The position numbers and the translations under genes are program-made. From a virus, in IMG/VR virus record IMGVR_UViG_3300021962_008205, positions 1 through 44,467 of that record: a DNA stretch of 44,467 nt; one strand, written 5' to 3'. The notes under the pieces were generated by a model, which had not been told where the DNA came from, searched no databases, and saw nothing but the letters and a program-made list of their open reading frames with translations. Within the stretch, counting starts at the first letter, position 1. Every line of letters begins with the position of its first letter. Shown here one piece after another: positions 2,870-44,467 of the stretch.

Positions 2870-2873
2870 AAAT

Positions 2874-3080
2874 TTATAATTCGGTATTATCGGTGGGTTG
2901 AATAGGTCCATCGTTTTCTGTGGTTCCTGAGTTTTTTATGTGTTCTTCATGTAATGCTTTTAAATGTTCAATCATTTTTTGATTGTACATTTTTTGATAC
3001 ATCTTACCCAATTGGTCAATTTGAGCGTTACGCTGTTGTACTTTTTGTTTGTGATTTTTTCTGTTTCTTGATTTTGGCAT
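2874..3080 (-). CDS. Small basic hypothetical protein, 68 aa
   Basis: The N-terminal third is strongly basic (MPKSRNRKNHKQKVQQRN) and is followed by a Met/Gln/His-rich, probably helical middle and an acidic tail. No family is recognised; it could bind nucleic acid or a replication protein, but that is a guess from charge only. It ends 4 nt before the preferred gp46 start, so the two are probably co-transcribed. A minus-strand terminator at 3129-3165 separates it from the gene upstream, so a promoter is expected in 3081-3128. That stretch is A/T-rich and contains TATACTTA but lacks a clear -33 TTTG. Confidence 0.65.
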   Translation of the reverse strand: MPKSRNRKNHKQKVQQRNAQIDQLGKMYQKMYNQKMIEHLKALHEEHIKNSGTTENDGPIQPTDNTEL

Positions 3081-13513: not shown

Positions 13514-16306
13514 TTATGTACAAGCACAACTAGTATGTACTGAGATTATTGATGTAGCGGTTCCACCCAATACACCTCCGATAACTTCCCAACATCCTGA
13601 ATATCCTGTTCCACTTAATTTTACAAAATCACCAATACTTACATTCAGTAAACCATTATTGGAAACTGCAACTTGAATACCTGATGTACAACTTTCTACT
13701 ATATATTTAGCGGGTTTAGGTGTGTTACTTGGTGTTTGTGTAGGTGTCTTAGTTGGTGTAGGAGTTGGAGTTTTAGTTAAGGTAGGTGTGTTGGTTGGAG
13801 TAGATGTAGGTGTTCTAGTTGGTGTCTTAGTCATAGTAACCGATGGAGTTACTGTGACAGTTGGTGTTGGTGTTTGTGTAGGTGTCTTAGTTTGTGTAGG
13901 TGTCTTTGACGGTGATAAGTTTGGTGTTCTTGTAGGTGTTGCGGTTTTAGTTACCGTTGGTGTTACCGTTGGTGTTACACTATTTGTTGGTGTTACCGTT
14001 GGTGTTACCGTATTAGTTGGTGTTACCGTATTAGTTGGTGTTACCGTTGGTGTTACAGTCTTAGTTGGAGTAGGTGTTGGTGTTAAACTATTTTGACAAC
14101 TTACACAACTCACATACGACGCAATAATTGTATTAAGTGTTAATGTTGGACTTTGGTCATATACAACATCCAAATAAGTATAACATTTAGTTGTTCCTGA
14201 TACTTCAGCACTAAATGTTTGACCTGTATTTATAATTGTTTCACCTGAAGTTCTCATTGACTGATTCACATAATAAATTTCATTATCAGAACAATCTTGA
14301 ATCTTACGAACAAATACACATTCAAATTCAGTGTCATTAATTGTATAGGTTGTTGAACCTGATATGTTGACATTTCTTTGTAAACTTGGTGTTGGTGTTA
14401 CAGTTGGCGTAGGTGTTGGAGTTGGAGTTGTATCTTCTACAGTAATGTCAGCATCAACAAATGCACAAGGATTTGGGCTTGGTGTTACACTAATTGTTGG
14501 TGTTGGAGTTAAACATGTAACAGTTGGTTCAGGTTCGTAATCACAATCAAAAAATGCGTTGAAATTTACATTCAAACATACATTTGTTGTTGGTGTTGGC
14601 GTAGGTGTTGGACAAGGTCCTTCTGACCAAAATAAATTATCCAAATCAGGGCAATTTGAAAAACAAGGTGATTTACCCGCTAAAATACAAGTACCACCTA
14701 ATGTTGCTCCCAAACACCATTTAGTTCCATCGTAAAAAACAGTACCTGATGTGGAGCCTGTCCAATATGGTCTTCCATTGTAAGTTCCACCTGATGTATA
14801 ATTTCCATCATACATTGATGTACCTGAGAAATTTGTATATAAACAAAATTCAGTATTACATAGTCCATACACCGGTGTTGGACTTGGCGTTGGTGTTTGT
14901 GTTGGTGTTGGTTCAGGTGTTGGTGTTATTTGATTACAGTCACCAATTACAGTAACGAACACACCATCAGGTACAATCACACTATATTCACATGCGCATA
15001 TATTTAATTCACTAAGTTCAGGTACAATTAAATTCTGATTATCACCATTACAATCTACATATGTTACAGTTGCAGGAAACTCCTCAGTATTATTAATTTG
15101 ATACTCAATACAGTTACTTCCCGGTCCACAACAACTATAGTCGTCAGTACAAACCGAACAATTATCATATGGACCTGTTAAACCAACGATAACATATTTT
15201 TCACCAAAACCTGTCATTGGTATTACTTCGGCACAACCTGTAAAACCACTTCCTGTGATATAATATACCTCACCAACATTTATAGTTCCAACATAATCAT
15301 CAACAACAAAAATTTCATTCGGTGAACAACAAGCCCTGAATTGATAATCAGTAGGACCAGCTGTTACTGAAGGAGTTGGAGTATTGGAAGGTGTTAAAGT
15401 TGGTGTAACCGTATTAGTTGGTGTTATAGTTGGCGTAACAGTATTGGTTGGAGTAACAGTATTGGTAGGAGTAACAGTATTGGTCGGTGTAACCGTATTG
15501 GTTGGTGTTACTGTTGGTGTTACTGTTGGTGTGACTGTTTTTGTCGGAGTCACTGTTGGTGTTACGGTATTAGTTGGTGTTACGGTATTTGTAGGCGTAG
15601 GTGTAGGTGTTGGACAAACTTGTGAACAAGCGTCGGTATATGATGTAACTAACCCCCTATGTGGTAAATTAGGATTAAAACATACAACATCATTAATACT
15701 ACCGCCACTTACAAAAGTACCACAACAATCAGTATATGAACAAAGTATATTATCAACAGTACCTGAAACACAACAAGGATAAGCTGTTAAACAATCATTA
15801 CAATTGGACCAAGAACCAGGTGTAGTAACACTTACTGTTGTTTGACCTGTCTGAACGTAAATTGTTGAGCCAGTCACTCCCGTAATATAGGATGCACATC
15901 CAACGAAAGCAAATGTTTGAGGGCTCGTTGTGGCTGTAGCCACAGAAAATCTCCATATTTCACCAACGGTTAATGGTCCATATGTATTTTCAAAAGCAAA
16001 ATCACCTCTTCTAATACTAAAGGTACTACCATCACAACAAGCTGAAAAAGTATAATAGCATCCATTTGGATTTGCGGCATCACATACTGGACAAGTGCTA
16101 TATTGTTCACTTGAAAATGATTGTTCTGAAGGGTCTAAAGAACTAGTGGTGGTATAGTAATAACAACTGCCATCACCAGTATAAATTACAGTACTTACGT
16201 TTGCTACCCAAGTACCTGCGGTATCAATTTCAAATGTTCTATAAATTGGAGCACCAGACCCCAAAGGGTTACAACATTGATAAAAATACCTATTAACTAG
16301 TGCCAT
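13514..16306 (-). CDS. Thr/Pro-linked, Cys-rich modular fibre protein, 930 aa
   Basis: Beads-on-a-string architecture. Cys-containing modules lie at about 8-75, 84-175, 321-386, 670-737 and 868-929. A CAC module at about 395-458 and a [12 protein letters not shown] module at about 480-560 complete the set. They are separated by Thr/Pro linkers at 232-316, 461-478, 566-573, 599-612, 626-641 and 741-865. The recurrent Cys module starts with CC or DC, has a central G-x-x-(Y/F) strand and a C in the middle, and ends C-x-x-C (for example GPYDNCSVC). The linkers repeat units such as [12 protein letters not shown]. Such linkers are extended and are often O-glycosylated in other proteins; here that is an inference supported by the glycosyltransferase genes starting 32 bp away. 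There is no catalytic motif. It is probably a host-binding fibre or surface decoration. Confidence 0.75.
13712..14086 (-). repeat. Tandem Thr/Pro-coding repeat (linker 2)
   Basis: Degenerate tandem repeat with units of 6 to 18 bp that encodes residues 741-865 of the 930-aa fibre protein, mostly T-P-T, T-N-T-V-T-P and K-T-P-T-Q units. The plus strand reads as repeated GGTGTTACCGTTGGTGTTAC. Such tracts can expand or contract by slippage, changing linker length. Codon choice varies between units, so it is not a freshly made array. Confidence 0.85.
15359..15613 (-). repeat. Tandem Thr/Pro-coding repeat (linker 1)
   Basis: Encodes residues 232-316 of the same protein, dominated by the unit T-N-T-V-T-P. 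Several neighbouring 18-bp units are nearly identical at the DNA level (plus strand GTAACAGTATTGGTTGGAGT type), which suggests more recent duplication here than in the longer linker. Confidence 0.85.
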
Positions 16307-23234: not shown

Positions 23235-23334
23235 TATAATAATTCCGTTTATACATGAATATAAGATTTTGTATAATGAAGTGAATATAAAGAAATATTT
23301 GTCTTTTATATTTATATGGAAATATTTATAGTTA
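23235..23334. promoter_or_regulatory. Divergent intergenic region
   Basis: These 100 bp separate two genes transcribed away from each other. On the plus strand TTTG (23268-23271), a 22-bp spacer and AATATTTG (23294-23301) form a near-match to the Bacteroidota promoter, one base off in the -7 box and with a long spacer. No clear consensus is seen for the minus-strand GT60 gene, although one is required by position. Confidence 0.3.
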
Positions 23335-23502
23335 ATGAAATTACTTAAAACAATAGAAAAATTAATCAAGGAATCTGAGGAGGCTTATAATCAAGCACTG
23401 GAATCTGTTGTTGATGAAAAAGAATTGGACCGTCTTGAAAAGAATTATAAAGACAGTTTAAAATTGATGAAAACCTTTTATCAGATTAACAAAAAGAAGT
23501 AA
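23335..23502 (+). CDS. Small coiled-coil protein, 55 aa
   Basis: A plus-strand ATG frame of 55 codons (starts MKLLKTIEKLIKESEEAYNQ) ending at TAA 23502. The product is one long amphipathic, charged helix with heptad-like Leu/Ile spacing, typical of a small coiled-coil or anti-host peptide. Its stop lies 2 bp from the stop of the convergent minus-strand gene. It stands alone on this strand amid a long minus-strand region and has its own intergenic region upstream. Function is unknown. Real-gene status is supported by compact placement between two neighbours and normal codon composition. Confidence 0.65.
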   Translation: MKLLKTIEKLIKESEEAYNQALESVVDEKELDRLEKNYKDSLKLMKTFYQINKKK

Positions 23503-25995: not shown

Positions 25996-26385
25996 TCAAA
26001 TAACATTTGTGTGATTTCTTCCGTCATTCCAATAACTTACATCACCATACCAAACAAATATTTCTTCATTTGGTTGTATGTCTCTATTGGCAATAAATTT
26101 GAATGTTTTATTTTCAGCATTTGAAACCCAATAAGCATTGGCATTTTCACTGTGATTGTATAGCCCACCATACCCAAATGCAAATACTTGTTCTTCCCAT
26201 TCAACACCTTGTGGCCAATTGAATCTATAATCAATTAATAATGATGATGATTCACCTTTATTAATCGGTAAGGTAATTACAGGACATTCTTCAAAAATTT
26301 CACCTTCTTTAATCAATTCTTTTGCAAACACACCCCATCCATGAACAGGACTTTGGTCTATGTATATTTTTGAATTATAAATCAT
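25996..26385 (-). CDS. SET-domain protein (lysine methyltransferase-like)
   Basis: The 129-aa product is a minimal SET domain. It starts near HGWGVFAKELIKEGEIFEE, has the SAM- and substrate-binding Y-N-H-S motif in LYNHSENANAYW, and ends with RDIQPNEEIFVWYG, the usual post-N-H-S element with the catalytic-type Tyr. Stand-alone SET proteins of this size in viruses and bacteria methylate lysine on proteins; the target here is unknown. It overlaps the HldD-like gene by 4 bp, so it belongs to the same operon as sugar-modifying enzymes. It could modify a fibre, a host protein, or a component of the cassette; the sequence does not decide. Confidence 0.82.
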   Translation of the reverse strand: MIYNSKIYIDQSPVHGWGVFAKELIKEGEIFEECPVITLPINKGESSSLLIDYRFNWPQGVEWEEQVFAFGYGGLYNHSENANAYWVSNAENKTFKFIANRDIQPNEEIFVWYGDVSYWNDGRNHTNVI

Positions 26386-27182
26386 AAATTAAAATATTCT
26401 TTTAACCCATCTTCTAAAGACCATTGTGATTTCCAATTTGTCATCCATTTTTTTGTATCACTACAAGTAAAAAATTGATATCCTTTTGGTATCAAATTTT
26501 CATCATGGTATTGGTAAGGTATATTCATAATTTTCATAACATCTTCAAACATCCTTGCAGTTCCTGAACCAACCTCATAATACTTTCCACTTAAAGTTTT
26601 ATAATTTTCAAAGGCGTGAATATTTGCCGAAATAACATCTTTAACATAAACAAAATCTCTCTTTGGTTTCTTTGGAAATAATTTTATTTCTTCATTGTTA
26701 TTATGTTTTTTATTCATCTGAAATGCAACTGAAGCCATTTTTCCTTTATTATGTTCTCCTGGTCCGTATACATTGAAATATCGTAATCCAATACCTCCAC
26801 CATTAGTAACATAATCTTCAGCAACATATTTACTCCAACCATATAAATTAGATGGGTGTTCATTATTAGTTCCGTAGTTTGCTGCGGATGACGAATAAAT
26901 CATTGGGACTTTTTTTGATTTACATAAATCCATTAAATGTTTAGTAAATTCATAGTTTACCAACATCATATAATTTACATTTGTTTCCAATGTGTCAGAA
27001 CAAGCTCCGACATGGAAAACCCCTGAAATGTTTAACCAAAAATATTTTGACACTTCGTCTTTCCATGATATATTCTTGAATATATCTTCGTTAATCTCAA
27101 TGATTTCGTATTTACCTTCAAGTTCTTTTTTGAGGTTTGAACCAATAAAACCTTTAGTACCTGTTATTATAATTTTTTCCAT
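26382..27182 (-). CDS. NAD-dependent ADP-heptose 6-epimerase-like (HldD/RfaD type)
   Basis: The 266-aa product is an extended short-chain dehydrogenase with ITGTKGFIGSNL (NAD-binding GxxGxxG), FHVGACSDTLE, the catalytic S-S-S and Y-x-x-x-K in LYGWSKYVAED, and YFNVYGPGEHNKGKMASVAF. The last block, PKRDFVYVKD and a C-terminal YQFFTCSDTKKW echo HldD, which converts ADP-D,D- to ADP-L,D-heptose. It is shorter than typical HldD (about 310 aa). The nearby presence of a BAHT-type heptosyltransferase (33298-35601), whose family uses ADP-heptose, gives it a plausible role. No HldE or GmhB homologue is seen, so the ADP-heptose supply would come from the host. Other nucleotide-sugar epimerase activity is possible. 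Confidence 0.78.
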   Translation of the reverse strand: MEKIIITGTKGFIGSNLKKELEGKYEIIEINEDIFKNISWKDEVSKYFWLNISGVFHVGACSDTLETNVNYMMLVNYEFTKHLMDLCKSKKVPMIYSSSAANYGTNNEHPSNLYGWSKYVAEDYVTNGGGIGLRYFNVYGPGEHNKGKMASVAFQMNKKHNNNEEIKLFPKKPKRDFVYVKDVISANIHAFENYKTLSGKYYEVGSGTARMFEDVMKIMNIPYQYHDENLIPKGYQFFTCSDTKKWMTNWKSQWSLEDGLKEYFNL

Positions 27183-27184
27183 AA

Positions 27185-28015
27185 TTATTTATATGCTATT
27201 GACACACCATTCTCTCTATGAGTTTTATAACCTTTTTCAATTAGATAGTTATTAATCAACTCTCTTTCGTCAGGTGTTGAATTGTTGTATTCATAAATAA
27301 TGATGTCAAGGTGAGATAATTGGTTGTCGGATAAAGACATTATTAATTCATAATCAATACCTTCAACATCTGTGTGTATCCAATTAACATCTTCAGTAAT
27401 TAAATCAGAAAATTTAATTGATGTTCTTTCAGTTTCAGTTATTGGTTCTTTTTCCCAATAATCAATCACACGCTTTACAACGGTATTGGTATATCCCTTA
27501 CCACCTTCATAAAATATCACATTTCCACCATCTTTTGTAACTAATTCATTAACAAATTTAAGATTATCATAATCACTATAGTTTTTAACTAATGATGAAA
27601 ATTGTTTTTGACTAGCCTCCACCAAAATAATATCAGACAGTTTATCAATTGCAACAGGAACCCATTCACCAAATTCACCATTGTGTGTTCCAATAACAAC
27701 ACCTTTATTATTTTTGTTTTTTAAACAGTAATTCCATAATTTTTTATAAATGAACGTACCATTCATTAATACATTCCATTTTTTAACATAAACTAAATTA
27801 TTTAGTTTGTCAAAGACAATTACATCAACAATTTCATTATCAGGAAACGCCGCCCAAGAGTTACTATTTAGTTCAGTATCCCATAATTTATTCCCATTTA
27901 CTGAACGAACAAAATTAAATTTTAACGGTAACTGCTCTTCTCCAAAAACCTCACTTAAATTGAAAGTGTTGATTTTAATCCCTTGTTCATATTTTATTTT
28001 GATTAAATCACTCAT
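27185..28015 (-). CDS. FkbM-like methyltransferase
   Basis: The 276-aa product has a variable N-terminal about 95 residues and a class I methyltransferase C-terminal half: VVIGTHNGEFGEWVPVAI in the SAM loop position, IILVEASQKQFSSL, and the FkbM-style DVNWIHTDVEGIDYELIMSL. The glycine-rich loop is atypical (G-T-H-N-G-E-F-G). The N-terminal part could be a substrate-binding cap. It lies 2 bp upstream of the HldD-like gene in the same operon. Likely a sugar or glycan O-methyltransferase; the acceptor is unknown. Confidence 0.72.
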   Translation of the reverse strand: MSDLIKIKYEQGIKINTFNLSEVFGEEQLPLKFNFVRSVNGNKLWDTELNSNSWAAFPDNEIVDVIVFDKLNNLVYVKKWNVLMNGTFIYKKLWNYCLKNKNNKGVVIGTHNGEFGEWVPVAIDKLSDIILVEASQKQFSSLVKNYSDYDNLKFVNELVTKDGGNVIFYEGGKGYTNTVVKRVIDYWEKEPITETERTSIKFSDLITEDVNWIHTDVEGIDYELIMSLSDNQLSHLDIIIYEYNNSTPDERELINNYLIEKGYKTHRENGVSIAYK

Positions 28016-28018
28016 AAA

Positions 28019-29005
28019 CTATCTATAGTTGTAATAAACTTGGTTCATCATAATGTTATTAAACTCCCCTGTATAATCAACTTCGTAGCCATTATAGTTA
28101 AATTTAATACTATGTATTGACTGTGAATCAACAGGAAACTCATTTATTTCCCATTTTTTAGGGTTAATAGTATAGGTTACATTATTAATTATTACATCAA
28201 TTTCACCCATATTTTCAAAAGAATGAAACACAATTCTAAGGTTACTTGTTAATTTTTCACATCGGGTCTTTTCATTTTCACCAACCCATATATCAATTTC
28301 TTCATTTTTAGAAATAAACATTTTAAAATCTTCAAATGGTGAATAATTAAAAAAATCAAAATCACCCCAATAATAAACTTTGTCTTTTACTGGATGTCCT
28401 GATGTTGGGATGTTAAATTTATTTTTCCATTTTAGCACCTCCCCCTCAGCCATACCATTTGTTCTCAAATATTCATTTAAGGTAACTTCCTTTTCAACTT
28501 TAATCATTAGTTCTCGGTCAAAAGCCATAAAATGTAATGTTGTCTCCCAAAGTACATCAGGGTGATGAGGGTCTCTCCTTGGGTGTATGATGTTAATATC
28601 GTTTGATAAAAACTCAGCCTCAATAACATCATCAATTTCCAAATCATATATTATATGATAAAACCTTTCGTAGTCGAATGTTAATGCAATTTGCGATAAT
28701 TTTTTAACTTGATGTAAAGCTGCCCATCCATAATCTGCTAATCCTCTTTGAAGTGTTGTTATTCTACCGTCTGATATTGGCATTTCATACCAATGTGTAT
28801 ACATTCTAATTGGCCATTTAAGTAACTCGTTGTCTTTAGTGTAGAAAAAGTAATCACATAAATCCACAATTTTTTGAGGTACGGGAATAGGACTTATCGC
28901 AATAACATCGATACCTAAACTTTTAATCTTAATTACATTTTCTTCAAGAATTTTTATTTTTTCATCAGTATCACAAAATGTACTAATTAACGCAATTTTT
29001 TTCAT
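28019..29005 (-). CDS. Putative glycosyltransferase-like protein (paralogue A)
   Basis: The 328-aa product starts with KIALISTFCDTDEKI and shares its N-terminal plan with the gene at 31036-32040 (both have an I-x-T-x-C start, then a cluster ending D-Y-F-F-Y or N-Y-C-F-Y about 55 residues in). A likely metal-binding patch HIIYDLEID lies near residue 120, comparable to HHIEYDCEI in the paralogue; a D-x-E or E-x-D acid pair in this position is typical of GT-A folds. The C-terminal about 90 residues look like a separate beta-sandwich that could bind a glycan. I cannot name the family. It overlaps the GT-methyltransferase gene by 4 bp. Confidence 0.55.
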   Translation of the reverse strand: MKKIALISTFCDTDEKIKILEENVIKIKSLGIDVIAISPIPVPQKIVDLCDYFFYTKDNELLKWPIRMYTHWYEMPISDGRITTLQRGLADYGWAALHQVKKLSQIALTFDYERFYHIIYDLEIDDVIEAEFLSNDINIIHPRRDPHHPDVLWETTLHFMAFDRELMIKVEKEVTLNEYLRTNGMAEGEVLKWKNKFNIPTSGHPVKDKVYYWGDFDFFNYSPFEDFKMFISKNEEIDIWVGENEKTRCEKLTSNLRIVFHSFENMGEIDVIINNVTYTINPKKWEINEFPVDSQSIHSIKFNYNGYEVDYTGEFNNIMMNQVYYNYR

Positions 29006-30495
29006 ATCATAAAATCAAATCTATATTCTTTTTTAACACCTAATGTTTCTTCAACACTTTTTTTTGTAATAATAATACAATTTTTATAATATGTAATTGA
29101 TTCAATATCTAAATGATTTTTAATCTTACTAAAATCTGAATTTATTTTATGTGGTGTAGTTGCAAAATAATCCATAATACTATAATTCCCAATTTCATAT
29201 CCATAGATACTTTCTTTTGGGTTCCAATAGTTACATTCAATATCCTCTATGATATAGATACTACCGTTTTTTAACATATTTTTAAATAAAAAGTTAAAAG
29301 TATCTATTTGGTGTTGTGGGTGGTGACTCCCATCATCAATAATAACGTCACACTCACCTATTTTTTCAACCATAAGTTTTAAATCATCAATTTTACTTTG
29401 GTCACCCGAATACATTACACCTCTTTCTTGGTTTCGTTGTTCAGAAATATCCATAGCAAATATTTGACCATTTTTAAAATACTCAATCCACATATTAAAT
29501 GATGCCGCCTCAGAGCCACTTCCAATCTCAAAAAGTTTAATGTTTTTATTTCTTAACGGTTCTAAAAATTTTTCATAAACTTTATCGTACTTATGTTCTA
29601 AAACTTTATCAGTATTATATTTTAAACCAAGACCATACATATCACTATTGTTTTGGTTATTTAAAACAATCTCAATAACATCATCAATCACTTTTTTGTA
29701 GTCACTATATGGTCTTGCACAATTAACATCTATGTAATACCCATTTTTAAGTTTTTCTAAATCGTAGACACCATATTTTTTTTGATTTTCAATTTCACCA
29801 TCCCAAACTAAATCAACAGGAAAATTATGTCTCTCAATTCTTCTTGGTGTTAAAAAATTACTATAGTGACCTCTTTTTAATTTTATTATTTCGATACCGT
29901 GGTTATTATTATTTACACAGTCCGAAAAATAAAATTCATCAATTAACCACATAATTTTATACCCCTCTTTGTAGTTTGAATGTCTATTCATAAATTCATC
30001 AAATGTACAATCGGAATTTAATATTTTTGTAAACGTTTTTCCTTTACCAACGTTATACACGTATCCATACATTTCTTGTTTAAATGGTAATGGTTCGTCT
30101 TGAAATAACTTTTGAGATTCGGGTCTTGATAAGTCGTAAGCATCACTTGACATTATCACCAACGAATCTTCTGAATAATGTTTTAATTGTTCAATAAAAT
30201 AATTTTTATTAATCATTAACATATCTAAATCCCCACAAATACAAACCTCATCAGGAAAATATTTTGTACCATACATTCTTACTGTACAAGCCTGAATCGC
30301 GGTATGAATACCCTCAACACTTTTAACCTTTTTAACAAGTCCATTACCATCATCATAAAAATCACTATCCTCACTATCAATTTTAAATAGAACTGGTTCC
30401 CATCCAAACAACTCTTTAACCATCCTTGCTTGTACGGGCCAAAAGTCTAAGAAATATGAATCATCACTAGCAAATATTATTTTTTTAATTTCCAT
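29002..30495 (-). CDS. Fusion of GT-A-like transferase and SAM methyltransferase
   Basis: The 497-aa product joins two domains. Residues about 1-280 look like a GT-A transferase: IIFASDDSYFLDFWPVQARM, then VCICGDLDMLMINKNYF with a D-L-D metal motif. Residues about 285-480 form a class I methyltransferase of the mycinose/macrocin type: GLKYNTDKVLEHKYDKVYE, KLFEIGSGSEAASFNMW, DVIIDDGSHHPQHQI and GSIYIIEDIECNYW. The pair could transfer a sugar and methylate it, or cap a chain by methylation. The gene overlaps the acetyltransferase gene by 11 bp and the paralogue A gene by 4 bp. Family of the methyltransferase domain is sure, the transferase domain likely. Confidence 0.75.
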   Translation of the reverse strand: MEIKKIIFASDDSYFLDFWPVQARMVKELFGWEPVLFKIDSEDSDFYDDGNGLVKKVKSVEGIHTAIQACTVRMYGTKYFPDEVCICGDLDMLMINKNYFIEQLKHYSEDSLVIMSSDAYDLSRPESQKLFQDEPLPFKQEMYGYVYNVGKGKTFTKILNSDCTFDEFMNRHSNYKEGYKIMWLIDEFYFSDCVNNNNHGIEIIKLKRGHYSNFLTPRRIERHNFPVDLVWDGEIENQKKYGVYDLEKLKNGYYIDVNCARPYSDYKKVIDDVIEIVLNNQNNSDMYGLGLKYNTDKVLEHKYDKVYEKFLEPLRNKNIKLFEIGSGSEAASFNMWIEYFKNGQIFAMDISEQRNQERGVMYSGDQSKIDDLKLMVEKIGECDVIIDDGSHHPQHQIDTFNFLFKNMLKNGSIYIIEDIECNYWNPKESIYGYEIGNYSIMDYFATTPHKINSDFSKIKNHLDIESITYYKNCIIITKKSVEETLGVKKEYRFDFMI

Positions 30496-31039
30496 AAAAT
30501 TTATTTATAAATCCATTTATATCATCTGACCACATACTCATAGCGTTGTCTTTAATTTTTTGTTCATCCCACTCCCACCAAGCAATTGATAACAATTTTT
30601 CAATCTGTTCATCATCAAATCTATATTTAACAATTTTTCCAGGATTACCAGCAACAATCGCATATGGTGGTACGTCTTTAGTAACTACAGAGCCAGCGGC
30701 AACAATCGCCCCATCACCAATTTTAACACCTGACATTATAGTTGCATTAGCTCCAATCCAAACGTCATTTTCAATTATAATATCACCCTTACAAGATGGG
30801 TGTCCCATATCCATATGCATCTGAGCAATCTCGTGAGTCACAGGACCCCATAATTGAGATGATGTTGTTACCCAATCGGGTTTATGATTTGCGTGAAGAA
30901 AGAAATTACAATCTCTACCTATTGAATTGTATTTACCAATCCTAACGTGGTATTGGTCACTCCAAGAAATTATGTTTACGTGTCGGTCAAAATAGGTCCC
31001 CCTATCTGCGTGCCAAAGATGTATGTTTTCTATACTCAT
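30485..31039 (-). CDS. Hexapeptide-repeat O-acetyltransferase (XAT/CatB-like)
   Basis: The 184-aa product has left-handed beta-helix repeats: IIIENDVWIGANATIMSGV then KIGDGAIVAAGSVVTKDV, and the family ending PPYAIVAGNPGKIVKYRF. A catalytic-type His lies in FFLHANHKPDW, the place used by the xenobiotic acetyltransferase group. Enzymes of this type move acetyl from acetyl-CoA onto sugar hydroxyls and act as trimers in the cytoplasm. In this operon, O-acetylation of a sugar or glycan is the likely use. It overlaps both neighbours by 4 to 11 bp. Confidence 0.85.
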   Translation of the reverse strand: MSIENIHLWHADRGTYFDRHVNIISWSDQYHVRIGKYNSIGRDCNFFLHANHKPDWVTTSSQLWGPVTHEIAQMHMDMGHPSCKGDIIIENDVWIGANATIMSGVKIGDGAIVAAGSVVTKDVPPYAIVAGNPGKIVKYRFDDEQIEKLLSIAWWEWDEQKIKDNAMSMWSDDINGFINKFYGN

Positions 31040-32040
31040 ATATTTAAAGGTTCTTTATGTCTAAAACTACTCAACTTAAAAATTTTTTTTTCTTCTTCAG
31101 TAGTTAATAAGAATTTATCTCTAATCTCATCATTTTCAATAACTAATATGTGACTAATATCATTGAAATTACCCAAATTAATCATCCTCCAATGACCTAA
31201 AAGTGTCTCAGGGATTTGTATAACTTTTTCGTGATTAATAATAATGCTATGTCTAACACCATTTTCATTCTTTGTATTCCAAACAACAAACCCTATGGTA
31301 TCTTCTAATCTATCATAAAATGGTACCGCCCAAGGAATAAATTTCACACTGACTTGACCATCAACTATTCCGAAATTATTCCCATTTTTTTCTAAAACAT
31401 TTCTATCTTTTCTAAAAACTTTACCACCCTCTTCTAATATTTTTTGAAGCATTAATTCAGGAGATTTACTTGAGGCCCTTCTAATCATTTCTTTAATTTT
31501 ATCTTCATCCAAATTAACCATAAATCTATCCAATTTAGGAATAAAATATGATTGGAAACTTCCTAATAAAATTTCATCAATATTTTTATCATTGTTGTCG
31601 ATATAAATAACTGAATCATGTTCATCTAATAATTTTGAATTTTCATCAAACTCAGAATCATTTTTTATTTCACAATCATATTCAATGTGGTGAACTTTAT
31701 TATACCCCATATTCTTTGATAGAGAAAACCCTAATATCATCATTCTCCAAATTGCTAAATGAGTATTTTTTTTACTTAAGAATGATGATTGAATTCTTCT
31801 ATCATTATTTGGGTTAAACCAAGGTTGGTTTAACAAATCCCAATCAATTAGAATTTCATTTTTACTGTCGTAAAAACAATAGTTAACTTTTTTCTGAATG
31901 TCAGTTGGTATCACAGTATGACTGACAATCATAGTATCATACTTTTCTTTAAAGTTGTACAATGAATTAACCAAACCCCTCAACACGTTTTCACGATAAT
32001 CGTCAGGACAATATGCTGTTATTAAAATTAAGTCTTTCAT
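31036..32040 (-). CDS. Putative glycosyltransferase-like protein (paralogue B)
   Basis: The 334-aa product resembles the gene at 28019 in its first half: start MKDLILITAYCPDDYRENVL, the NYCFYDSKNEI block, and the acid-rich VHHIEYDCEIKND near residue 120. The C-terminal half differs and contains the segment GIVDGQVSVKFIPWAVPFYD, then a beta-rich end. The shared N-terminal half probably binds the nucleotide sugar. No CAZy family can be assigned by eye. It overlaps the acetyltransferase gene by 4 bp and the PglD-like gene by 1 bp. Confidence 0.55.
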   Translation of the reverse strand: MKDLILITAYCPDDYRENVLRGLVNSLYNFKEKYDTMIVSHTVIPTDIQKKVNYCFYDSKNEILIDWDLLNQPWFNPNNDRRIQSSFLSKKNTHLAIWRMMILGFSLSKNMGYNKVHHIEYDCEIKNDSEFDENSKLLDEHDSVIYIDNNDKNIDEILLGSFQSYFIPKLDRFMVNLDEDKIKEMIRRASSKSPELMLQKILEEGGKVFRKDRNVLEKNGNNFGIVDGQVSVKFIPWAVPFYDRLEDTIGFVVWNTKNENGVRHSIIINHEKVIQIPETLLGHWRMINLGNFNDISHILVIENDEIRDKFLLTTEEEKKIFKLSSFRHKEPLNI

Positions 32041-32618
32041 TATTTAATATTCTTTGTTGGGACGCCTCCATACACACCAGGTGATTCAATGTGTTTAACA
32101 ACCGCACTATTCATACCAATTGTAACCAAACTATGTATTGATATTTTTTCTCGGATTGAGGAATTATTACCCATATAAACAAGGTCGTGTATTTTTACAT
32201 TCCCTGATACAATAGCCCCAGGCATCGCACTAAAGTAATCACCAATTTCACAATCGTGACCAATATGATTACCTCTATTTAAAATAGCGTGTTTACCTAT
32301 TTTTATATTTGTGGTTAGTATTGAATACGCACCAACAAAACTACCTTCACCAATTTCAATGTTGTCATCCATAATTAACACTGTTGGATGAACCCAATTA
32401 AAATATTTAGTCTCTTTGGGTAGTCTTTGAATAATGTCAAATCGGTCTCTCGAATCAGCAACCGCAACCATTAGAACATATTCTTTAGGGTCAAACTCTG
32501 ATAATGGTCTTGTTCCTTCTACAACATATTTGTCATCAACAAAACAAGTTAATTCTATTCCCATTTGAGCCATTACTTCTTTAGCGTGGCCACCATACCC
32601 AACTAAAGCCTTTTTCAT
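32040..32618 (-). CDS. PglD/NeuD-like sugar N/O-acetyltransferase
   Basis: The 192-aa product has the family layout: an N-terminal Rossmann-like domain (KALVGYGGHAKEVMAQMG, where G-Y-G-G-H-A is the signature) and a left-handed beta-helix with IEIGEGSFVGAYSILTTNIK and the catalytic-type His in NRGNHIGHDCEIGDY. The end VYGGVPTKNIK is also typical. PglD acetylates the 4-amino group of a UDP-sugar made by a DegT-type aminotransferase. Such an aminotransferase-like gene lies just upstream (4-bp overlap), so the two probably make an acetamido sugar nucleotide. NeuD-type sialic acid O-acetylation is the alternative. Confidence 0.85.
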   Translation of the reverse strand: MKKALVGYGGHAKEVMAQMGIELTCFVDDKYVVEGTRPLSEFDPKEYVLMVAVADSRDRFDIIQRLPKETKYFNWVHPTVLIMDDNIEIGEGSFVGAYSILTTNIKIGKHAILNRGNHIGHDCEIGDYFSAMPGAIVSGNVKIHDLVYMGNNSSIREKISIHSLVTIGMNSAVVKHIESPGVYGGVPTKNIK

Positions 32619-33259
32619 TGTTTGTAAACATCAAATTTAGATAAGTCAGGATAAGGTAACTCTAAATCTTGATTATGTTTTTTTGAACCGTCAAGATTAT
32701 AAAACTGATTCATCAACAACATTCCTCTAGCAGCCAACTCAGGCATCATATAAAAATTCCAACCCAACATATCAAGATTATCATCATGATAAGAACACTC
32801 TCGTCTACCACTATATCTAGCTCTTTTAAACCAATGATAAGCGTCCAAACTATCTGTTAAAATTGCACCGCCTTTACTCAATTTAAAATGTTTGTATGGC
32901 CCCGTAAATGAAATACACATATGACTACCTGGTATATACATGTCAGCGGTAAATGATAATGCCGAGTCCCAAACATTTGAACCTAATAGTTGGTAAGCAC
33001 CTTTTATTGTTCTACCTTCAACAGGTATAAAGTCAACTTTTAAACCGGCGTGAATAATTTCACAAGGAACAGAAGGATATGTTCTTGATGGTATACCAAT
33101 TTTTTCATCTTTTATTCTTTTGGTAATATTTTTTTCATAGTACAACGCCAAAAATAAAGCATTACTCATGTTATCTAATGTTACAACATACGGAGCTCCC
33201 GTATATCTCGCAAGTTCTTTTTCAAAATCATCAGTTATTTTATAAACACCGTTTGCCAT
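32615..33259 (-). CDS. Short DegT/DnrJ-type sugar aminotransferase
   Basis: The 214-aa product contains the PLP half of a DegT fold: YVVTLDNMSNALFLAL, GIPSRTYPSVPCEIIHAGLK, VWDSALSF (D98, the residue contacting the PLP nitrogen) and CISFTGPYKHFKLSKGGAIL. In the last block K123 is in the position of the PLP-binding lysine, 7 residues before the G-G. Normal members are about 370-400 aa; the C-terminal small domain is mostly missing here, though the stop is clean and no frameshift is visible. It may work as a compact enzyme, or be decayed. It is the first gene of its operon, with only 38 bp before the divergent plus-strand gene. It probably feeds the PglD-like gene. Confidence 0.78.
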   Translation of the reverse strand: MANGVYKITDDFEKELARYTGAPYVVTLDNMSNALFLALYYEKNITKRIKDEKIGIPSRTYPSVPCEIIHAGLKVDFIPVEGRTIKGAYQLLGSNVWDSALSFTADMYIPGSHMCISFTGPYKHFKLSKGGAILTDSLDAYHWFKRARYSGRRECSYHDDNLDMLGWNFYMMPELAARGMLLMNQFYNLDGSKKHNQDLELPYPDLSKFDVYKQ

Positions 33260-33297: not shown

Positions 33298-35601
33298 ATG
33301 ATAAAACCAAAAATTTATGTTCATGGTTCTTACGTTGGGAACACAGGATATAACAATCACACAAGGGATTTTTTTAGAGAGATATCTAAACACGCTCAAG
33401 TTAAAGTACGAAATTTTACAGTTGGAGATTCTTGGTCAGGTAATAGTTTAACACCACATGATAATGAACCTTATCTGAATGATACCGATAAATCAATTTT
33501 ATATAAACAAAGATTATGGGTTGGTGATGGTGTAATGGAAGATTTTACAATCTATCCATCCGAAAAAAAAGATTTTTTTCCCGATTTTAACATAGTTTTA
33601 AATGAAACAAATCATCATTTATTTTATGAAAATTATTTGGGACCAAAAATTGCTTATAATGTTTGGGAATCAACATTACAACCTGAAACTTTTTTTAATA
33701 AATTAAAAGAGTTTGATGAATTGTGGGTACCCTCAAAATGGCAAAAAGAATGTACAGTTGCCCAAGGATATGACTCCGATAAAATTAAAGTTGTTCCTGA
33801 AGGTGTTGATGTTGACACTTTTTATCCTGAAAAAGTAGAATTACTTGATGAATACACTGATGGTAGATTTAAGTTTTTATTGATGGGTCGTTGGGATTAT
33901 CGCAAATCAACAAAAGAAATAATTGAGACCTTCTTAAAAACATTTTCTGCCGATGAACCAGTTGATTTAGTTGTATCAATTGATAATATGTGGGGCGAAC
34001 AAATGGATGGATACAAAACAACTGAGGAACGATTAAACGCTTATGGTTTTATTGACCCAAGAATTAAGATAATTCATTTTCCTTCTCGTGAAGATTATGT
34101 TAAATATTTAAAAACAGGTCATGTTTTTGTATCGTGTGCCAGGTCGGAAGGTTGGAATTTACCATTAATTGAAGCAATGGCTTGTGGTACCCCTTCAATA
34201 TACTCTAATTGTTGTGCTCAACTTGAATTTGCCGAAGGAAAAGGTTTTCCTGTAAATATTGTTGGTGAAAAAGCCGCAAATCTTAATGACTACGGTAGAT
34301 ACGTTATGAGTGAATTACCAGGAAATTATTATGAACCTGATTTTAATCACCTATCCAAAGTTATGAGATATGTTTATGAAAATTATGATTTATGTAAAGA
34401 AAAATCTTTTAAAGAATCAATTGACTTAAGAAATAATTTTAGTTGGGAACAAATTGGTAAAATTGGTTATGATACAATTACTGATTTTTATAATAAAATA
34501 AATACACCTGAATTTAATGAAAATAAAATACCAAATAAAATTAAAGTATCTTATTTTGAAGGACCTAAAGTTGAAATAGTTGGTGATGTTTATAAACAAT
34601 ATTCAGTTGAGTTTTTAGATGAATCTGACAATATCGTATATGGTACAAAAATTTCAAATAATATGTGGACATCATGTGGTAGAAAATACTACACAAAATG
34701 GAAAATTAGAGTTGATGGTGAAATTATTGATGAGTTTGATTTAACAAATAAACGAGTTTTAATTTCAATGGAATCTAAATCAATTGGTGATACAATTGCA
34801 TGGGCACCTTATGTTGTTGAATTTTCAAAAAAACATAATTGTAAAGTTATATTTAGTACTTTTCATAATTCTTGGTTTGAGGGTCATGAAAATTATAAGG
34901 ATATTGAATTTATTAAACCAGGTGAATTAACAAATTGTGATGTCGTATATAGGGTTGGTTGGATGCGTTCAGATAATAATAAATGGGATAAATTTGATTG
35001 TTATCCAAACTACCCTAATACCCAAGAATTACAAAAAACCGCATCCGATATTTTAGGATTAGAGTTTAAAGAATTAAATTTAGGCATAAATTTTACACCT
35101 AAAAATAAACCTTACATGGGTAATTATGTTATATTAGCACCTGAGTCAACAGCTGGTTGTAAAGAATGGACTTATGATAGTTGGGTGTTATTATCAAAAT
35201 TGTTAAAAGAAAATGGGTATACACCAATACTTCTAACAAGTAAAAAATATAACATCAAAAATGTTCCAAATGCATATGGTAGGAGTTTAGAAGAAGCAAT
35301 GAATATTTTATACCACGCAGAATTTATGATTGGATTAAGTTCAGGTCTATCTTGGATAAATTGGGCATTAGGAAAACACACGGTCATGATAAGTGGTTTT
35401 ACCCCAAAACATCATGAATTTACCACAAATATAACAAGAATACAAAATGAACATTCTTGTAATTCTTGTTGGTCTAACATTAATTTTAAATTTGACCCTG
35501 GAAATTGGAATTGGTGTCCAATTTGGGAGGGTACTGACAAACAACACATTTGTCAAAAATCAATTTCACCATTAACAGTATTTAATTTATTACCAATATG
35601 A
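33298..35601 (+). CDS. GT4 glycosyltransferase fused to BAHT/TibC-like protein O-heptosyltransferase
   Basis: The 767-aa product holds two complete transferases. Residues 1 to about 400 are a GT4 enzyme: GNTGYNNHTRDFFREI, VVPEGVDVDTFYPE, LLMGRWDYRKSTKEI and the E-x7-E block SEGWNLPLIEAMACGTPS. Residues about 413-767 match the bacterial autotransporter heptosyltransferase family (Aah, TibC): a beta-rich cap starting KVSYFEGPKVEIVGD, then SKSIGDTIAWAPYVVEF, APESTAGCKEWTYDSW, and FMIGLSSGLSWINWALGK. Four cysteines (C721-x2-C724-x15-C740-x11-C752) in the C-terminal part correspond to the iron-binding finger of TibC. TibC-type enzymes attach heptose from ADP-heptose to serines on surface proteins. 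It is on the opposite strand from its surroundings and is coupled to the next gene by a 4-bp overlap. Confidence 0.88.
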   Translation: MIKPKIYVHGSYVGNTGYNNHTRDFFREISKHAQVKVRNFTVGDSWSGNSLTPHDNEPYLNDTDKSILYKQRLWVGDGVMEDFTIYPSEKKDFFPDFNIVLNETNHHLFYENYLGPKIAYNVWESTLQPETFFNKLKEFDELWVPSKWQKECTVAQGYDSDKIKVVPEGVDVDTFYPEKVELLDEYTDGRFKFLLMGRWDYRKSTKEIIETFLKTFSADEPVDLVVSIDNMWGEQMDGYKTTEERLNAYGFIDPRIKIIHFPSREDYVKYLKTGHVFVSCARSEGWNLPLIEAMACGTPSIYSNCCAQLEFAEGKGFPVNIVGEKAANLNDYGRYVMSELPGNYYEPDFNHLSKVMRYVYENYDLCKEKSFKESIDLRNNFSWEQIGKIGYDTITDFYNKINTPEFNENKIPNKIKVSYFEGPKVEIVGDVYKQYSVEFLDESDNIVYGTKISNNMWTSCGRKYYTKWKIRVDGEIIDEFDLTNKRVLISMESKSIGDTIAWAPYVVEFSKKHNCKVIFSTFHNSWFEGHENYKDIEFIKPGELTNCDVVYRVGWMRSDNNKWDKFDCYPNYPNTQELQKTASDILGLEFKELNLGINFTPKNKPYMGNYVILAPESTAGCKEWTYDSWVLLSKLLKENGYTPILLTSKKYNIKNVPNAYGRSLEEAMNILYHAEFMIGLSSGLSWINWALGKHTVMISGFTPKHHEFTTNITRIQNEHSCNSCWSNINFKFDPGNWNWCPIWEGTDKQHICQKSISPLTVFNLLPI

Positions 35602-36323
35602 AAAATTTAGAAACCTTTGATTGGGGTTGGATGGACAAATCATCTGAAAGTTATCACATAATGCCCGATGGAACCCATAAAAGTATGGGCGAGTACCATA
35701 AAGATTCTATGATTCAAGAAATTTTTATAGATAAATGTTATGAAAGATTTTTTGAAGTAGAAGAAAATGACATTGTATTGGATGTTGGTGCCAGTGTTGG
35801 TCCTTTTACATATTCTATCTTACATAAAAAACCAAAACATGTATTTTGTTTTGAACCTAGTGAAAGTGAATTCAAAACACTTGTAAAAAATATTTTAGGT
35901 TATCCTGTAACACCTATAAATAAAGGAATTTCAAACGTAAATTCAATAGTGATGAACGACCATTTATTTGGTGGTGAAGAACAAATGGAATCAATTACTT
36001 TTCAAAAATTCATTGACTTATGTGGTATTGAAAAAATTGATTTTTTAAAAACTGATTGTGAGGGTGGTGAATTTGATATATTTACATTGGAAAACCTTGA
36101 TTGGATTAAAAATAATGTTAAAAAAATTACGGGTGAGTGGCACTTACAACTTCAGGGTCATGATTATGTTGCGAAATTTAGAGAATTTAGAGATGTTTAT
36201 TTAAAACAATTCACCAATTATGAAGTTTACTCTGTTGATAATATTGATATTAAATGGGACTTATGGAATGAACATTTTTTAGAATATTATAGACAAGTCA
36301 TTATTCACATAGATAATCGTTAA
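35598..36323 (+). CDS. FkbM-family methyltransferase
   Basis: The 241-aa class I methyltransferase has IVLDVGASVGPFTYSIL (SAM loop), VFCFEPSESEFKTLVKNI, and the FkbM block IDFLKTDCEGGEFDIFTLEN. The start codon overlaps the stop of the heptosyltransferase fusion (ATGA), so both are made together; methylation of the sugar attached by that enzyme is the natural guess. Its last 23 bp overlap the end of the convergent flavoprotein gene. Confidence 0.87.
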   Translation: MKNLETFDWGWMDKSSESYHIMPDGTHKSMGEYHKDSMIQEIFIDKCYERFFEVEENDIVLDVGASVGPFTYSILHKKPKHVFCFEPSESEFKTLVKNILGYPVTPINKGISNVNSIVMNDHLFGGEEQMESITFQKFIDLCGIEKIDFLKTDCEGGEFDIFTLENLDWIKNNVKKITGEWHLQLQGHDYVAKFREFRDVYLKQFTNYEVYSVDNIDIKWDLWNEHFLEYYRQVIIHIDNR

Positions 36324-40524: not shown

Positions 40525-41118
40525 TTATTTGTAATGGTCCCCTCCTATCCATAAAACCAAACTCTTTCTATTTCCACTTGTTAATGGGACCACCCTGTGT
40601 AATAAAAACGATGGGAATATTGCAACATTACCTTTTCCTCTTGGGACTGTCACATATTCACTACCTGTCATAATTTGTAAATCCCCACCCTCGTATTCAT
40701 TTGGTTCAGATAACTGTATAACCACAGATATTTTTCTATGTGAAATACTACCAGGACCAATATCTAAATGCCAATCATAATGACCACCATTTCCCTCATA
40801 TTCGGTATATTGAATGTTATCAATTATTGATTTTAATTCAAAGTTCCAAATAGCGTTGTTTGCTTCAATAACTTGGGACATTATTTTATCAATAACCCAT
40901 TCCCATTTAGAATCATAAGGTAACCATTTTATGTTACTTTTTCTAAATCTATCAGTATTGTTCTCATCAACAATAATAGCCTTTTGGAATTCATATTCTA
41001 ATGAACCACTAACAATTGTTTCAACTTCTTGAGTTGAAAATCCTTTTTCAAACCAATAATAGTTAGTTTGATTAATACCTTCTTTTGGCGGAAAAATTGG
41101 TTTTAAATCCATATTCAA
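40525..41118 (-). CDS. Prolyl-hydroxylase/PiuC-like Fe(II)/2-oxoglutarate oxygenase (copy 1)
   Basis: The 197-aa product has the double-stranded beta-helix motifs: H117-x-D119 in GGHYDWHLDIGPG, EYEGGDLQI, and the distal H174 with R184 in FPSFLLHRVVPLTSGNRKSL. This order (H-x-D, G-G-D-L, L-H-x-V-x-P-x-x-x-G-x-R) matches PKHD/PiuC-like and prolyl 4-hydroxylase-like enzymes. It is clearly a paralogue of the next gene, with motifs at the same residue numbers. Known relatives hydroxylate prolines or small molecules. Its position two genes from small fibre genes and the collagen-like fibre suggests a virion protein as substrate, which is inference. Confidence 0.85.
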   Translation of the reverse strand: MNMDLKPIFPPKEGINQTNYYWFEKGFSTQEVETIVSGSLEYEFQKAIIVDENNTDRFRKSNIKWLPYDSKWEWVIDKIMSQVIEANNAIWNFELKSIIDNIQYTEYEGNGGHYDWHLDIGPGSISHRKISVVIQLSEPNEYEGGDLQIMTGSEYVTVPRGKGNVAIFPSFLLHRVVPLTSGNRKSLVLWIGGDHYK

Positions 41119-41153: not shown

Positions 41154-41747
41154 TTATCTATATGGAGTTCCCCCTACCCAAAATACTAAACTTTTTCTAA
41201 CACCTTTTGTAACAGGTGTAACTCTATGTAATAAACAACTCGGGAACACAGTTACACCTCCTAAAATTCTTTCTGCGGTTTTTATTTCACCACCTGGCCA
41301 AATTTGTAAATCACCACCTTCATACTCGTTAGGGTCTGATAATAAAACAGAAACGGATACTTTTCTTTGATTCATATATCCACCACCTGCGTCTATATGC
41401 CAATCATAATGTCCATCATCAGTATATTCGGTATATTGTATTGGTTCTCTTGCCATAACTAAATCAAAAACCCAATGTTCATTATTAGTGACTTGTATTA
41501 ATTTCATTAATTTAACAAATATCCATTTGGTTTCTTCAGAAAAATAAATCCATTTCACATTACTTTTTCTATATTTTTCATTATGGTGACCACCATCACC
41601 ATCACTAACAATTCTCGCGTCTTCAAAATTTAAAGAATTAATTAACTCATTAATATTACTTCTTTCGTCTTCACTAAAAAACTCGTTTGTACAAGCATAT
41701 TTTGAAATATCAATTTTTGGATTGGTTGGAAATATTGGTAAACTCAT
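41154..41747 (-). CDS. Prolyl-hydroxylase/PiuC-like Fe(II)/2-oxoglutarate oxygenase (copy 2)
   Basis: Same length (197 aa) and same motif positions as the downstream copy: H117-x-D119 in DGHYDWHIDAGGG, EYEGGDLQIWPGGE, H174 and R184 in FPSCLLHRVTPVTKGVRKSL. The N-terminal 100 residues are more diverged between the copies, and this part usually shapes the substrate entrance. A tandem pair with conserved catalytic centres and different caps suggests two related substrates. It lies 38 bp downstream of a small fibre-associated gene and is read in the same direction as the collagen-like fibre. Confidence 0.85.
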   Translation of the reverse strand: MSLPIFPTNPKIDISKYACTNEFFSEDERSNINELINSLNFEDARIVSDGDGGHHNEKYRKSNVKWIYFSEETKWIFVKLMKLIQVTNNEHWVFDLVMAREPIQYTEYTDDGHYDWHIDAGGGYMNQRKVSVSVLLSDPNEYEGGDLQIWPGGEIKTAERILGGVTVFPSCLLHRVTPVTKGVRKSLVFWVGGTPYR

Positions 41748-42737: not shown

Positions 42738-44467
42738 TTATTTCTTTTCTAATTCTTTAATTTTATTGTTTAACTCTTGAATTGATTTGATTAAGAATGG
42801 TACCAATCTTTCATATGATAATGTTTTATATTTTTCATCATCTTCTATTTGTATCATTTCTGTTTCATGAATTAATTCAGGAAGGATTTGTTCAACTTCT
42901 TGAGCTATCAAACCAAAGTCATCTCCTCTACCCATACCTTCTTTCCAAGTATATGATACAGGTCTTAATTGTTCAATGATATCCAAACCGTTTTCAAGAT
43001 TTTTAACGTTTTTCTTCAATCTTTCATCTGAAGGCATCGTTGCAAAACCTATGATGTTAGCACTTGCAAAGAAGTCTCCAAATCCTGCAGTATTTTTCAT
43101 TGCGAATCCGTAGTTACCACCTACAGCAAACCCAATAATGTCAGAACTTACTCTATACATACCCGTATTAGTATCTGCGGAGAATGAATATGTTGGTGTT
43201 GTCGCAGAACCGTCACAAAGTTGTAAAGGACACGCTAATGGACCCGGTGCTCCTTGTGAACCTGTAGCTCCTTGTGCTCCTTGGTTTCCTGTACCTGTAG
43301 CTCCTTGTGCTCCTTGTGCTCCGTTAGAACCAGCAGCTCCTTGTGCTCCCGTAGGACCTTGTGGACCTAATGGACCCGTAGCACCTTGTGCTCCTTGTGG
43401 ACCTTGTGGACCTAATGGACCCGTAGCACCTTGTGCTCCTTGTGGACCTGTAGCTCCTTGTGGACCTGTAGCTCCTTGTGCTCCTTGTGGACCTGTAGCT
43501 CCTTGTGGACCTGTAGCTCCTTGTGCTCCCGTAGCTCCTTGTGGACCAACAGCTCCTTGTGCTCCCGTAGCTCCTTGTGGACCAACAGCTCCTTGTGCTC
43601 CCGTAGCTCCTTGTGGACCAACAGCTCCTTGTGCACCTTGTGGACCTGTTGCACCTTGTGCTCCCGTAGGACCTGTAGGACCTTGTGGACCTGTTGCACC
43701 TTGTGCTCCCGTAGGACCTGTAGGACCAACAGCTCCTTGTGCTCCCGTAGCTCCTTGTGGACCAACAGCTCCTTGTGCTCCCGTAGCTCCTTGTGGACCA
43801 ACAGCTCCTTGTGCTCCCGTAGCTCCTTGTGGACCAACAGCTCCTTGTGCTCCCGTAGCTCCTTGTGCTCCTTGAGGACCCAATGGACCTGTAGCACCTT
43901 GTGCTCCTTGTGGACCCTGAGGACCCAATGGACCCGTAGCTCCTTGAGCTCCTTGAGGACCTGTTGCACCTTGTGCTCCTTGTGGACCCTGAGGACCTAA
44001 TGGACCTGTAGCTCCTTGTGCTCCTGTTGCTCCTTGTGCTCCCGTAGGACCCTGAGGACCTAATGGACCTGTCGCTCCTTGTGCTCCCGTAGCTCCTTGT
44101 GCTCCTGTAGGACCTGTAGCACCTTGTGCTCCTTGTGGACCCTGAGGACCCAATGGACCCGTAGCTCCTTGAGCTCCTTGAGGACCTGTTGCACCTTGTG
44201 CTCCCGTAGGACCTGTAGGACCTTGTGGACCTGTTGCACCTTGTGCTCCTGTAGGACCTTGTGGACCTGTTGCACCTTGTGCTCCTTGAGGACCTGTAGG
44301 ACCTAATGGACCCGTAGCACCTTGTGCTCCTGTCGCTCCTTGTGCTCCCGTAGGACCCTGAGGACCTAATGGACCTGTAGCTCCTTGAGCTCCTTGAGGA
44401 CCTATAGGACCTGTAGGACCTTGTGCTCCTTGTGGACCTGTGGGACCTGTCGCTCCTTGAGCTCCTT
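42738..44467 (-). CDS. Collagen-like tail fibre with peptidase S74 chaperone domain (partial, 5' end outside window)
   Basis: The visible 575 residues open with about 135 G-X-Y triplets ([18 protein letters not shown]) broken once by a 5-residue stretch (G-T-G-N-Q). A short beta-rich linker follows ([20 protein letters not shown]), then a C-terminal intramolecular chaperone of the S74 type: the S-D motif (Ser at 43029-43031) in [40 protein letters not shown], and a C-terminal coiled coil ([10 protein letters not shown]). In known fibres the S74 domain drives trimer folding and then cuts itself off near the conserved Ser. The open frame runs to the window edge; an apparent start at 44153 is only a TTG inside the repeats. 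Y positions are nearly always Thr, Gln, Leu or Val; only one Pro at Y was seen. Confidence 0.9.
43236..44465 (-). repeat. Collagen-coding G-X-Y repeat tract
   Basis: 1230 bp encoding about 135 G-X-Y triplets, built from a few 9-bp units arranged in larger near-repeats (for example units coding [12 protein letters not shown] recur about seven times around 43530-43880). Third codon positions vary between units, but long blocks are almost identical, so the tract has expanded by recombination or slippage. Read lengths in assembly could also have altered copy number here. Confidence 0.92.

Follow-up and report, generated by a model that had tools for sequence, protein, structure and literature searches.

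We show herein that a gene of an IMG/VR virus record encodes a GT4 glycosyltransferase domain fused to a TibC-type domain, and that this fusion has been exchanged horizontally between unrelated phages as one gene. The record, which also bears a phage collagen/S74 tail fibre, was analysed as a single stretch of 44,467 nucleotides, hereafter called the window. Bacteria use TibC-type enzymes to attach sugars to adhesins that act in virulence. In the open-access literature searched, no report of TibC-like or autotransporter-type heptosyltransferases in phages was found. The explanation that we prefer, and to which we give an even chance of being right, is that the protein is a phage-encoded bifunctional protein O-glycosyltransferase by which the phage modifies Ser/Thr-rich repeats of its own fibres.

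The fusion gene and the features around it are listed in Table 1. A first-pass annotation of this DNA, made from the sequence alone, had assigned a BAHT layout with a beta cap to residues of about 413-767, and both the profile search and the structure prediction bear this out. The autotransporter O-heptosyltransferase model TIGR04414 (hepto_Aah_TibC, NCBIfam) matches residues 410-763 over profile positions 7-369 of 374; the score of 217 bits (E 3.7e-64) exceeds its curated equivalog cut-off of 200 bits. TibC (PDB 4rap) is matched by phmmer against the PDB at E 1.4e-33. An AlphaFold model of the fusion, built from 49 sequences, has a mean pLDDT of 89 and a pTM of 0.66. Residues 413-767 of this model align with TibC at a Z of 36.0 (rmsd 2.4 Å, 342 residues), and Foldseek gives E 2.2e-27 for the model against TibC. 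The beta cap corresponds to strands at residues 414-479, the structural match beginning at residue 413. The LPS heptosyltransferase I model, on the other hand, overlaps the TibC-type domain weakly (29 bits; cut-off 185).

Table 1. Positions in the window of the fusion gene, its domains and neighbouring features
Feature	Position	Strand	Basis
Mucin-like protein, 930 aa, long Thr/Pro repeats ([11 protein letters not shown]), 29% Ser+Thr, 10% Pro, 51 Cys	13514..16306	-	Composition; phrog_15511, E 1.5e-12; candidate O-glycosylation acceptor
Divergent cluster of nine genes, most of which overlap or abut, first gene 39 bp from the fusion	25996..33259	-	ORF layout, families
HldD-like ADP-glyceromanno-heptose 6-epimerase, short, 266 aa	26382..27182	-	TIGR02197, 204 bits; E. 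coli HldD match
Fusion gene, 767 aa, uninterrupted from its ATG start	33298..35601	+	
N-terminal GT4 domain (GT-B, retaining), residues about 1-412	33298..34533	+	Pfam, PHROG, structure match, invariant residues
C-terminal TibC-type domain, residues about 410-767: beta-barrel cap, GT-B core, four-Cys iron finger	34534..35601	+	TIGR04414, TibC structure match
Iron-finger segment, C721, C724, C740, C752	35458..35553	+	TibC spacing; invariance in viral domains
FkbM-type methyltransferase, probable partner	35598..36323	+	TIGR01444, 45 bits; 4-base overlap with the fusion at its stop codon
Tail fibre with collagen-like repeats ([12 protein letters not shown]) and an S74 chaperone domain, cut off by the end of the window	42741..44465	-	PF01391, E 1.3e-45; PF13884; 131 triplets; candidate acceptor

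The N-terminal half is, as judged from its sequence and predicted structure, a complete GT4 enzyme with a GT-B fold and an EX7E motif. Pfam PF00534 (Glycos_transf_1) covers residues 189-311 (E 1.7e-10) and phrog_2170 matches the N-terminal half (E 5.5e-31). The EX7E motif is formed by E284 and E292, which together with R198 and K203 are invariant in the 49-sequence alignment. In the model, this half has a Z of 34.6 to the chlorovirus glycosyltransferase 3oy2, with many GT4 enzymes at Z 25-31. The fusion to a full GT4 transferase in a phage, as first described, therefore stands.

The annotation had further pointed to four cysteines at the position of the TibC iron finger, while doubting whether the spacing of the last one agrees with TibC. 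C721, C724, C740 and C752 align without a gap with C339, C342, C358 and C370 of TibC, and the spacing is 3/16/12 in both proteins; the doubt was thus unfounded. All four cysteines are invariant across 104 viral domains. In the predicted model, the finger region, a putative metal site, has a pLDDT of about 68-87, and the overall fold matches TibC. The S-K-S-I-G-D block noted earlier is likewise present and contains D498, the equivalent of the catalytic D110 of TibC, and T618, K622 and W686 of the fusion correspond to T226, K230 and W305. The equivalents of these four TibC residues are also invariant across the 104 viral domains.

A study of TibC found that the enzyme requires Asp110, Arg286, Trp305, Lys230 and the iron finger, as well as a beta-hairpin thumb with Phe265/Val266 for its dodecamer (PMC4358343). 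Arg286 contacts the adenine, and its substitution by Ala abolished or largely diminished activity; position 300 decides whether D,D- or L,D-heptose is used, with the Ser of AAH accepting L,D-heptose; and the beta cap and iron finger are described as unlike the LPS heptosyltransferase WaaC or unique to TibC (PMC4358343). At position 300 the fusion carries Ser, as in AAH. At position 286 its equivalent residue is Ala (A667), not Arg, and the arginine is kept in only one of the 104 viral domains, the others having Val, Ser, Ile, Thr, Ala or Leu. Since Arg286 is lost in 103 of the 104, the donor may differ. Moreover, in the alignment to TibC, the tip of the thumb is gone from the fusion and the viral domains, the hairpin being shortened and devoid of the F265/V266 segment, so that a dodecamer cannot be assembled as it is in TibC. 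A fusion on a Pacearchaeota-labelled contig (L044:997-3345) is the opposite of the phage enzymes, as all four iron-finger cysteines are missing and Arg286 and a thumb-like hairpin are kept.

The loss of the thumb and of Arg286, a lower score, a separate branch and the lack of the target repeat in phages all place the fusion outside the classic autotransporter group, as a TibC-type enzyme of another kind. The classic bacterial BAHT members that were found score 484-650 bits against TIGR04414, compared with 217 bits for the fusion, and keep Arg286 and the hairpin length. In the tree, 8 of 8 classic BAHT enzymes lie on one side of a branch with a support of 100, and the phage fusions on the other. 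The autotransporter target repeat, TIGR04415, was detected in none of the 22 phage records scanned, most of them fragments, and was above cut-off in four of six classic BAHT genomes and below cut-off in a fifth. The description of the domain as "complete TibC-like" was thus correct as to the family and the intact cysteines, but not as to the thumb, Arg286 and the position in the tree.

The annotation had described BAHT enzymes as known from bacteria, and had suggested a search for the fusion in other phage genomes. The enzyme proved to be not unusual among phages but widespread, as at least 586 viral contigs in a scan of IMG/VR encode a relative of the TibC-type domain. The majority of the full-length copies examined have this GT4-TibC architecture, with a length of about 755-775 residues. 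Divergent members, including those of Mel-JY01 and a 735-kb phage record, possess the N-terminal GT4 domain by Pfam as well, and the Mel-JY01 fusion is 1226 aa long with extra domains between the halves. Only four public phage records contain a relative, and five relatives were found when a bacterial and archaeal collection was scanned with the phage alignment. An all-against-all DNA comparison of the records, with repeats masked, revealed a single stretch shared by the window and record G016, namely the fusion gene (2.35 kb at 82% identity); the two being alike in this gene alone, the fusion travels as a unit.

Several other features of these records deserve mention. A second, shorter TibC-type ORF (about 295 aa, beginning after the beta cap) stands in tandem with the fusion in three records (G002:C1:312307-313182, G007:C1:22967-23830 and G808:C1:4622-5500). 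In Microcystis phage Mel-JY01 (PP395634.1), the fusion is annotated as "methyltransferase FkbM", and the annotated gene L038:739-2298 of this phage is opposite in strand to a GTS/GSS fibre frame (635-3052, +), so the wrong strand may have been annotated. In the window, a GIY-YIG/NUMOD3 homing-endonuclease-like gene (7606-8331, -) lies between replication genes.

Genes with Gly-X-Y repeats accompany the fusion. Of 18 records examined, 17 have such a gene at no more than 13 kb from the fusion, and in 16 the distance is no more than 10 kb (combined p 1.7e-6, the records not being fully independent). The nearest ones are mostly of the Gly-[Ser/Thr]-Ser type, with up to 1045 triplets and 70-99% Ser/Thr outside Gly, and their proteins match PHROG tail-fibre families. 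The distance from a Gly-[Ser/Thr]-Ser gene to the fusion is as short as 16 bp (G007), 52 bp (G004), 419 bp (G010) or 804 bp (G015), and collagen genes 45-55 kb from the fusion (G009, G010 and G015) contain just 13-30% Ser/Thr. In the reverse direction, TIGR04414 was present, among the matches listed, in 20 of 50 records with G[S/T]S repeats versus 2 of 50 with ordinary collagen (Fisher p 8e-6), and in 13 of 22 versus 2 of 18 if only contigs over 45 kb were counted. Linkage by distance between the TIGR04414 gene and the pattern-matched repeat was weak in this reverse set (combined p 0.007 for the 13 contigs longer than 45 kb), and several pairs were 25-60 kb apart. Because the contigs are fragmentary and partly related, these p-values overstate the evidence, and the association may derive in part from phage lineage and from a general tendency of fibre regions to gather glycosyltransferases.

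In the 44,467 nt of the window, itself a fragment, no Gly-[Ser/Thr]-Ser gene was seen. G015, a relative with 10 kb of DNA in common with the window, encodes a G[S/T]S fibre at a distance of 0.8 kb from its fusion. It also encodes a mucin-like protein of 1367 aa, similar to that of the window, beside heptose genes (L228:6405-10508). The mucin-like protein of the window adjoins a SprB-repeat protein (PF13573; 597 aa, 25% Ser+Thr; 11495-13288, -). Elsewhere in the window are a PF11397 GlcNAc-transferase (21969-23369, -; E 1.8e-70) and two 2OG-Fe(II) oxygenases (40525-41118 and 41154-41747, -). The PF11397 family includes the Skp1 hydroxyproline GlcNAc-transferase, and with both oxygenases and the PF11397 gene in the same window as a collagen-like fibre, hydroxylation plus glycosylation of fibre proline is possible.

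Genes that could supply a heptose donor were found near some of the fusions. The HldD-like gene of the window scores below the TIGR02197 equivalog cut-off (204 versus 274.6 bits); the best PDB match of its protein is E. coli HldD (1eq2, E 4.8e-37), and the SSAA, YGWSK and K..MASVAF catalytic motifs are kept. It forms part of the divergent cluster, along with a DegT-like fragment, NeuD-like and Vat-like acetyltransferases, unknown proteins, an FkbM methyltransferase and a SET domain. The SET-domain protein of this phage sugar gene cluster is encoded at 25996-26385 (-; E 6.9e-16). Other sugar genes in the window code for GT2, GT10, acetyltransferases and methyltransferases. On the other side, the FkbM-type gene that overlaps the fusion has the same place, directly after the fusion, in 18 loci. 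In G011, a single gene separates an HldD-like gene from the fusion, which is followed by an FkbM-type methyltransferase resembling that of the window; these four genes are in series with short overlaps or gaps, and genes for the tail sheath and the tail tube lie immediately beyond. G004 has consecutive HldD-like, HldE-kinase-like (133 bits) and HldE-adenylyltransferase-like (104 bits) genes, HldE being the best family for the latter pair. Every score of these HldE/HldD-like proteins is below the curated cut-offs.

Strong HldD-like genes (at least 170 bits) occurred in 6 of 38 TibC-like-positive records versus 0 of 25 negative ones; at this threshold they are missing from most records with a TibC-like gene. 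GmhA was found only in a 636-kb phage record (W03; L117, LR756504.1:430182-430640), where it is full-scoring (251 bits) and 27 kb from the TibC-type gene. Judging from these genes and residues, we consider the prospects of ADP-heptose as the donor of the TibC-type half to be somewhat better than even. An early doubt, raised by the loss of Arg286 and the absence of gmhA, was softened once the HldD/HldE-like genes had been found.

According to the explanation that we prefer, the TibC-type half would transfer the first sugar, most likely L-glycero-D-manno-heptose from ADP-heptose, to Ser/Thr of the fibre, the ADP-heptose pool being supplied in part by the HldE/HldD-like enzymes of the phage. The GT4 half would then extend this by a second sugar. 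The FkbM methyltransferase, whose gene overlaps that of the fusion, may O-methylate or cap the glycan. In most relatives, the probable acceptor is a Gly-[Ser/Thr]-Ser collagen-like fibre; in this fragment, either the collagen-like fibre or the Thr/Pro mucin-like protein could play that part. The glycans may stabilise the fibre, shield it or act in contact with the host. The data show the identity of the domains, the retention of catalytic residues and iron ligands, the fusion, its horizontal exchange, its association with fibre genes and the presence of heptose genes nearby; the acceptor, the donor, which sugar is added first, the methyl cap and the purpose are what we infer from genes and models. 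The first-pass annotation had proposed a two-step enzyme that adds heptose and then a second sugar. A two-sugar reaction is plausible, and the heptose donor gains support from the HldD/HldE-like genes and the AAH-type Ser, but an autotransporter target is not supported, its repeat having been detected in none of the 22 phage records scanned, and the likely acceptor is instead a Ser/Thr-rich fibre protein of the phage. More tentatively, and short of an even chance, we propose that phages possess a large, hitherto undescribed class of two-step protein O-glycosyltransferases, each a TibC-type heptosyltransferase joined to GT4, which assemble glycans based on heptose on giant collagen-like Gly-[Ser/Thr]-Ser tail fibres, the phages themselves encoding the synthesis of ADP-heptose.

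The main rival explanation is that the fusion modifies host LPS or another surface glycan, for example against superinfection, with the HldD/HldE-like genes feeding it and the linkage to fibres reflecting the host-recognition region only. ADP-heptose is the donor for the LPS core, and the other sugar genes in which the window is rich would suit such a role. It also matches the published interpretation of pelagimyophage glycosyltransferases and rfaE in a host-recognition region, which was a change of the host O-chain (PMC7029224). We nevertheless regard it as unlikely, as the beta cap and iron finger are those of the protein-glycosylating TibC and not of WaaC (PMC4358343), the score of the LPS heptosyltransferase I model is far under its cut-off, and the association is with G[S/T]S fibre genes, not with collagen genes in general. 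A different possibility leaves the acceptor of our preferred explanation unchanged, and supposes that the TibC-type half is a protein glycosyltransferase using a donor other than ADP-heptose, the HldD/HldE-like genes serving another product. The loss of the adenine-contacting Arg286, the scarcity of HldD-like genes and their scores below cut-off speak for it, whereas the confinement of strong HldD-like genes to TibC-like-positive records, the Ser at position 300 and the retention of the catalytic Lys and Thr of the phosphate pocket speak for ADP-heptose. We see this other donor as a real possibility, though one that falls short of an even chance.

Two further readings concern other acceptors. 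Membership of the TIGR04414 family would agree with an enzyme aimed at the host, adding heptose to a bacterial adhesin in the manner of TibC and AAH, but the difference in TIGR04415 repeats between phage records and classic genomes, the missing thumb and the separate tree branch render this highly improbable. Some phage glycosyltransferases act on modified bases, and one neighbour has a weak match to a TET-associated glycosyltransferase (E 0.005), as might be expected if the fusion modified DNA and shielded the phage genome. This appears to have the slightest chance of all, since the cap and iron finger are those of a protein-modifying enzyme, the gene is linked to fibre genes, and no base-hypermodification gene was recognised nearby in Pfam scans.

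The occurrence of the TibC fold with a second glycosyltransferase in hundreds of metagenomic phage contigs, in linkage with very large genes for Ser/Thr-rich fibres, is an indication of widespread fibre glycosylation. It suggests a concrete enzyme-substrate pair, and would give phages a reason for ADP-heptose genes other than a change of host LPS. With TibC/AAH (TIGR04414; PDB 4RAP, 4RB4; PMC4358343) the phage enzyme shares the fold, the beta cap, the catalytic Asp, the phosphate Lys/Thr, Trp305 and the four iron ligands in identical spacing; it differs in being fused to GT4, in lacking the thumb, in the replacement of Arg286 by Ala, and in its occurrence in phages without autotransporter repeats. 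With the chlorovirus NY2A glycosyltransferase (3OY2) and phrog_2170 it shares the GT-B fold and the EX7E active site, although here GT4 is the N-terminal half of a two-enzyme protein. BclA, to which PMC3368898 refers, is a collagen-like spore protein with glycosylated Thr. Its dense O-glycosylation of Gly-X-Y repeats resembles the outcome proposed for the phage fibres, but it belongs to a bacterial spore surface and is made by unrelated enzymes. In mycobacteriophages, phage glycosyltransferases glycosylate the virion at the capsid and tail-tube termini (Freeman 2023, as cited in PMC12619734). That system, like the one proposed here, places sugars on proteins of the virion; as far as the citing article describes it, the mycobacteriophage system uses other enzymes and modifies capsid and tail-tube termini instead of Gly-[Ser/Thr]-Ser fibres.
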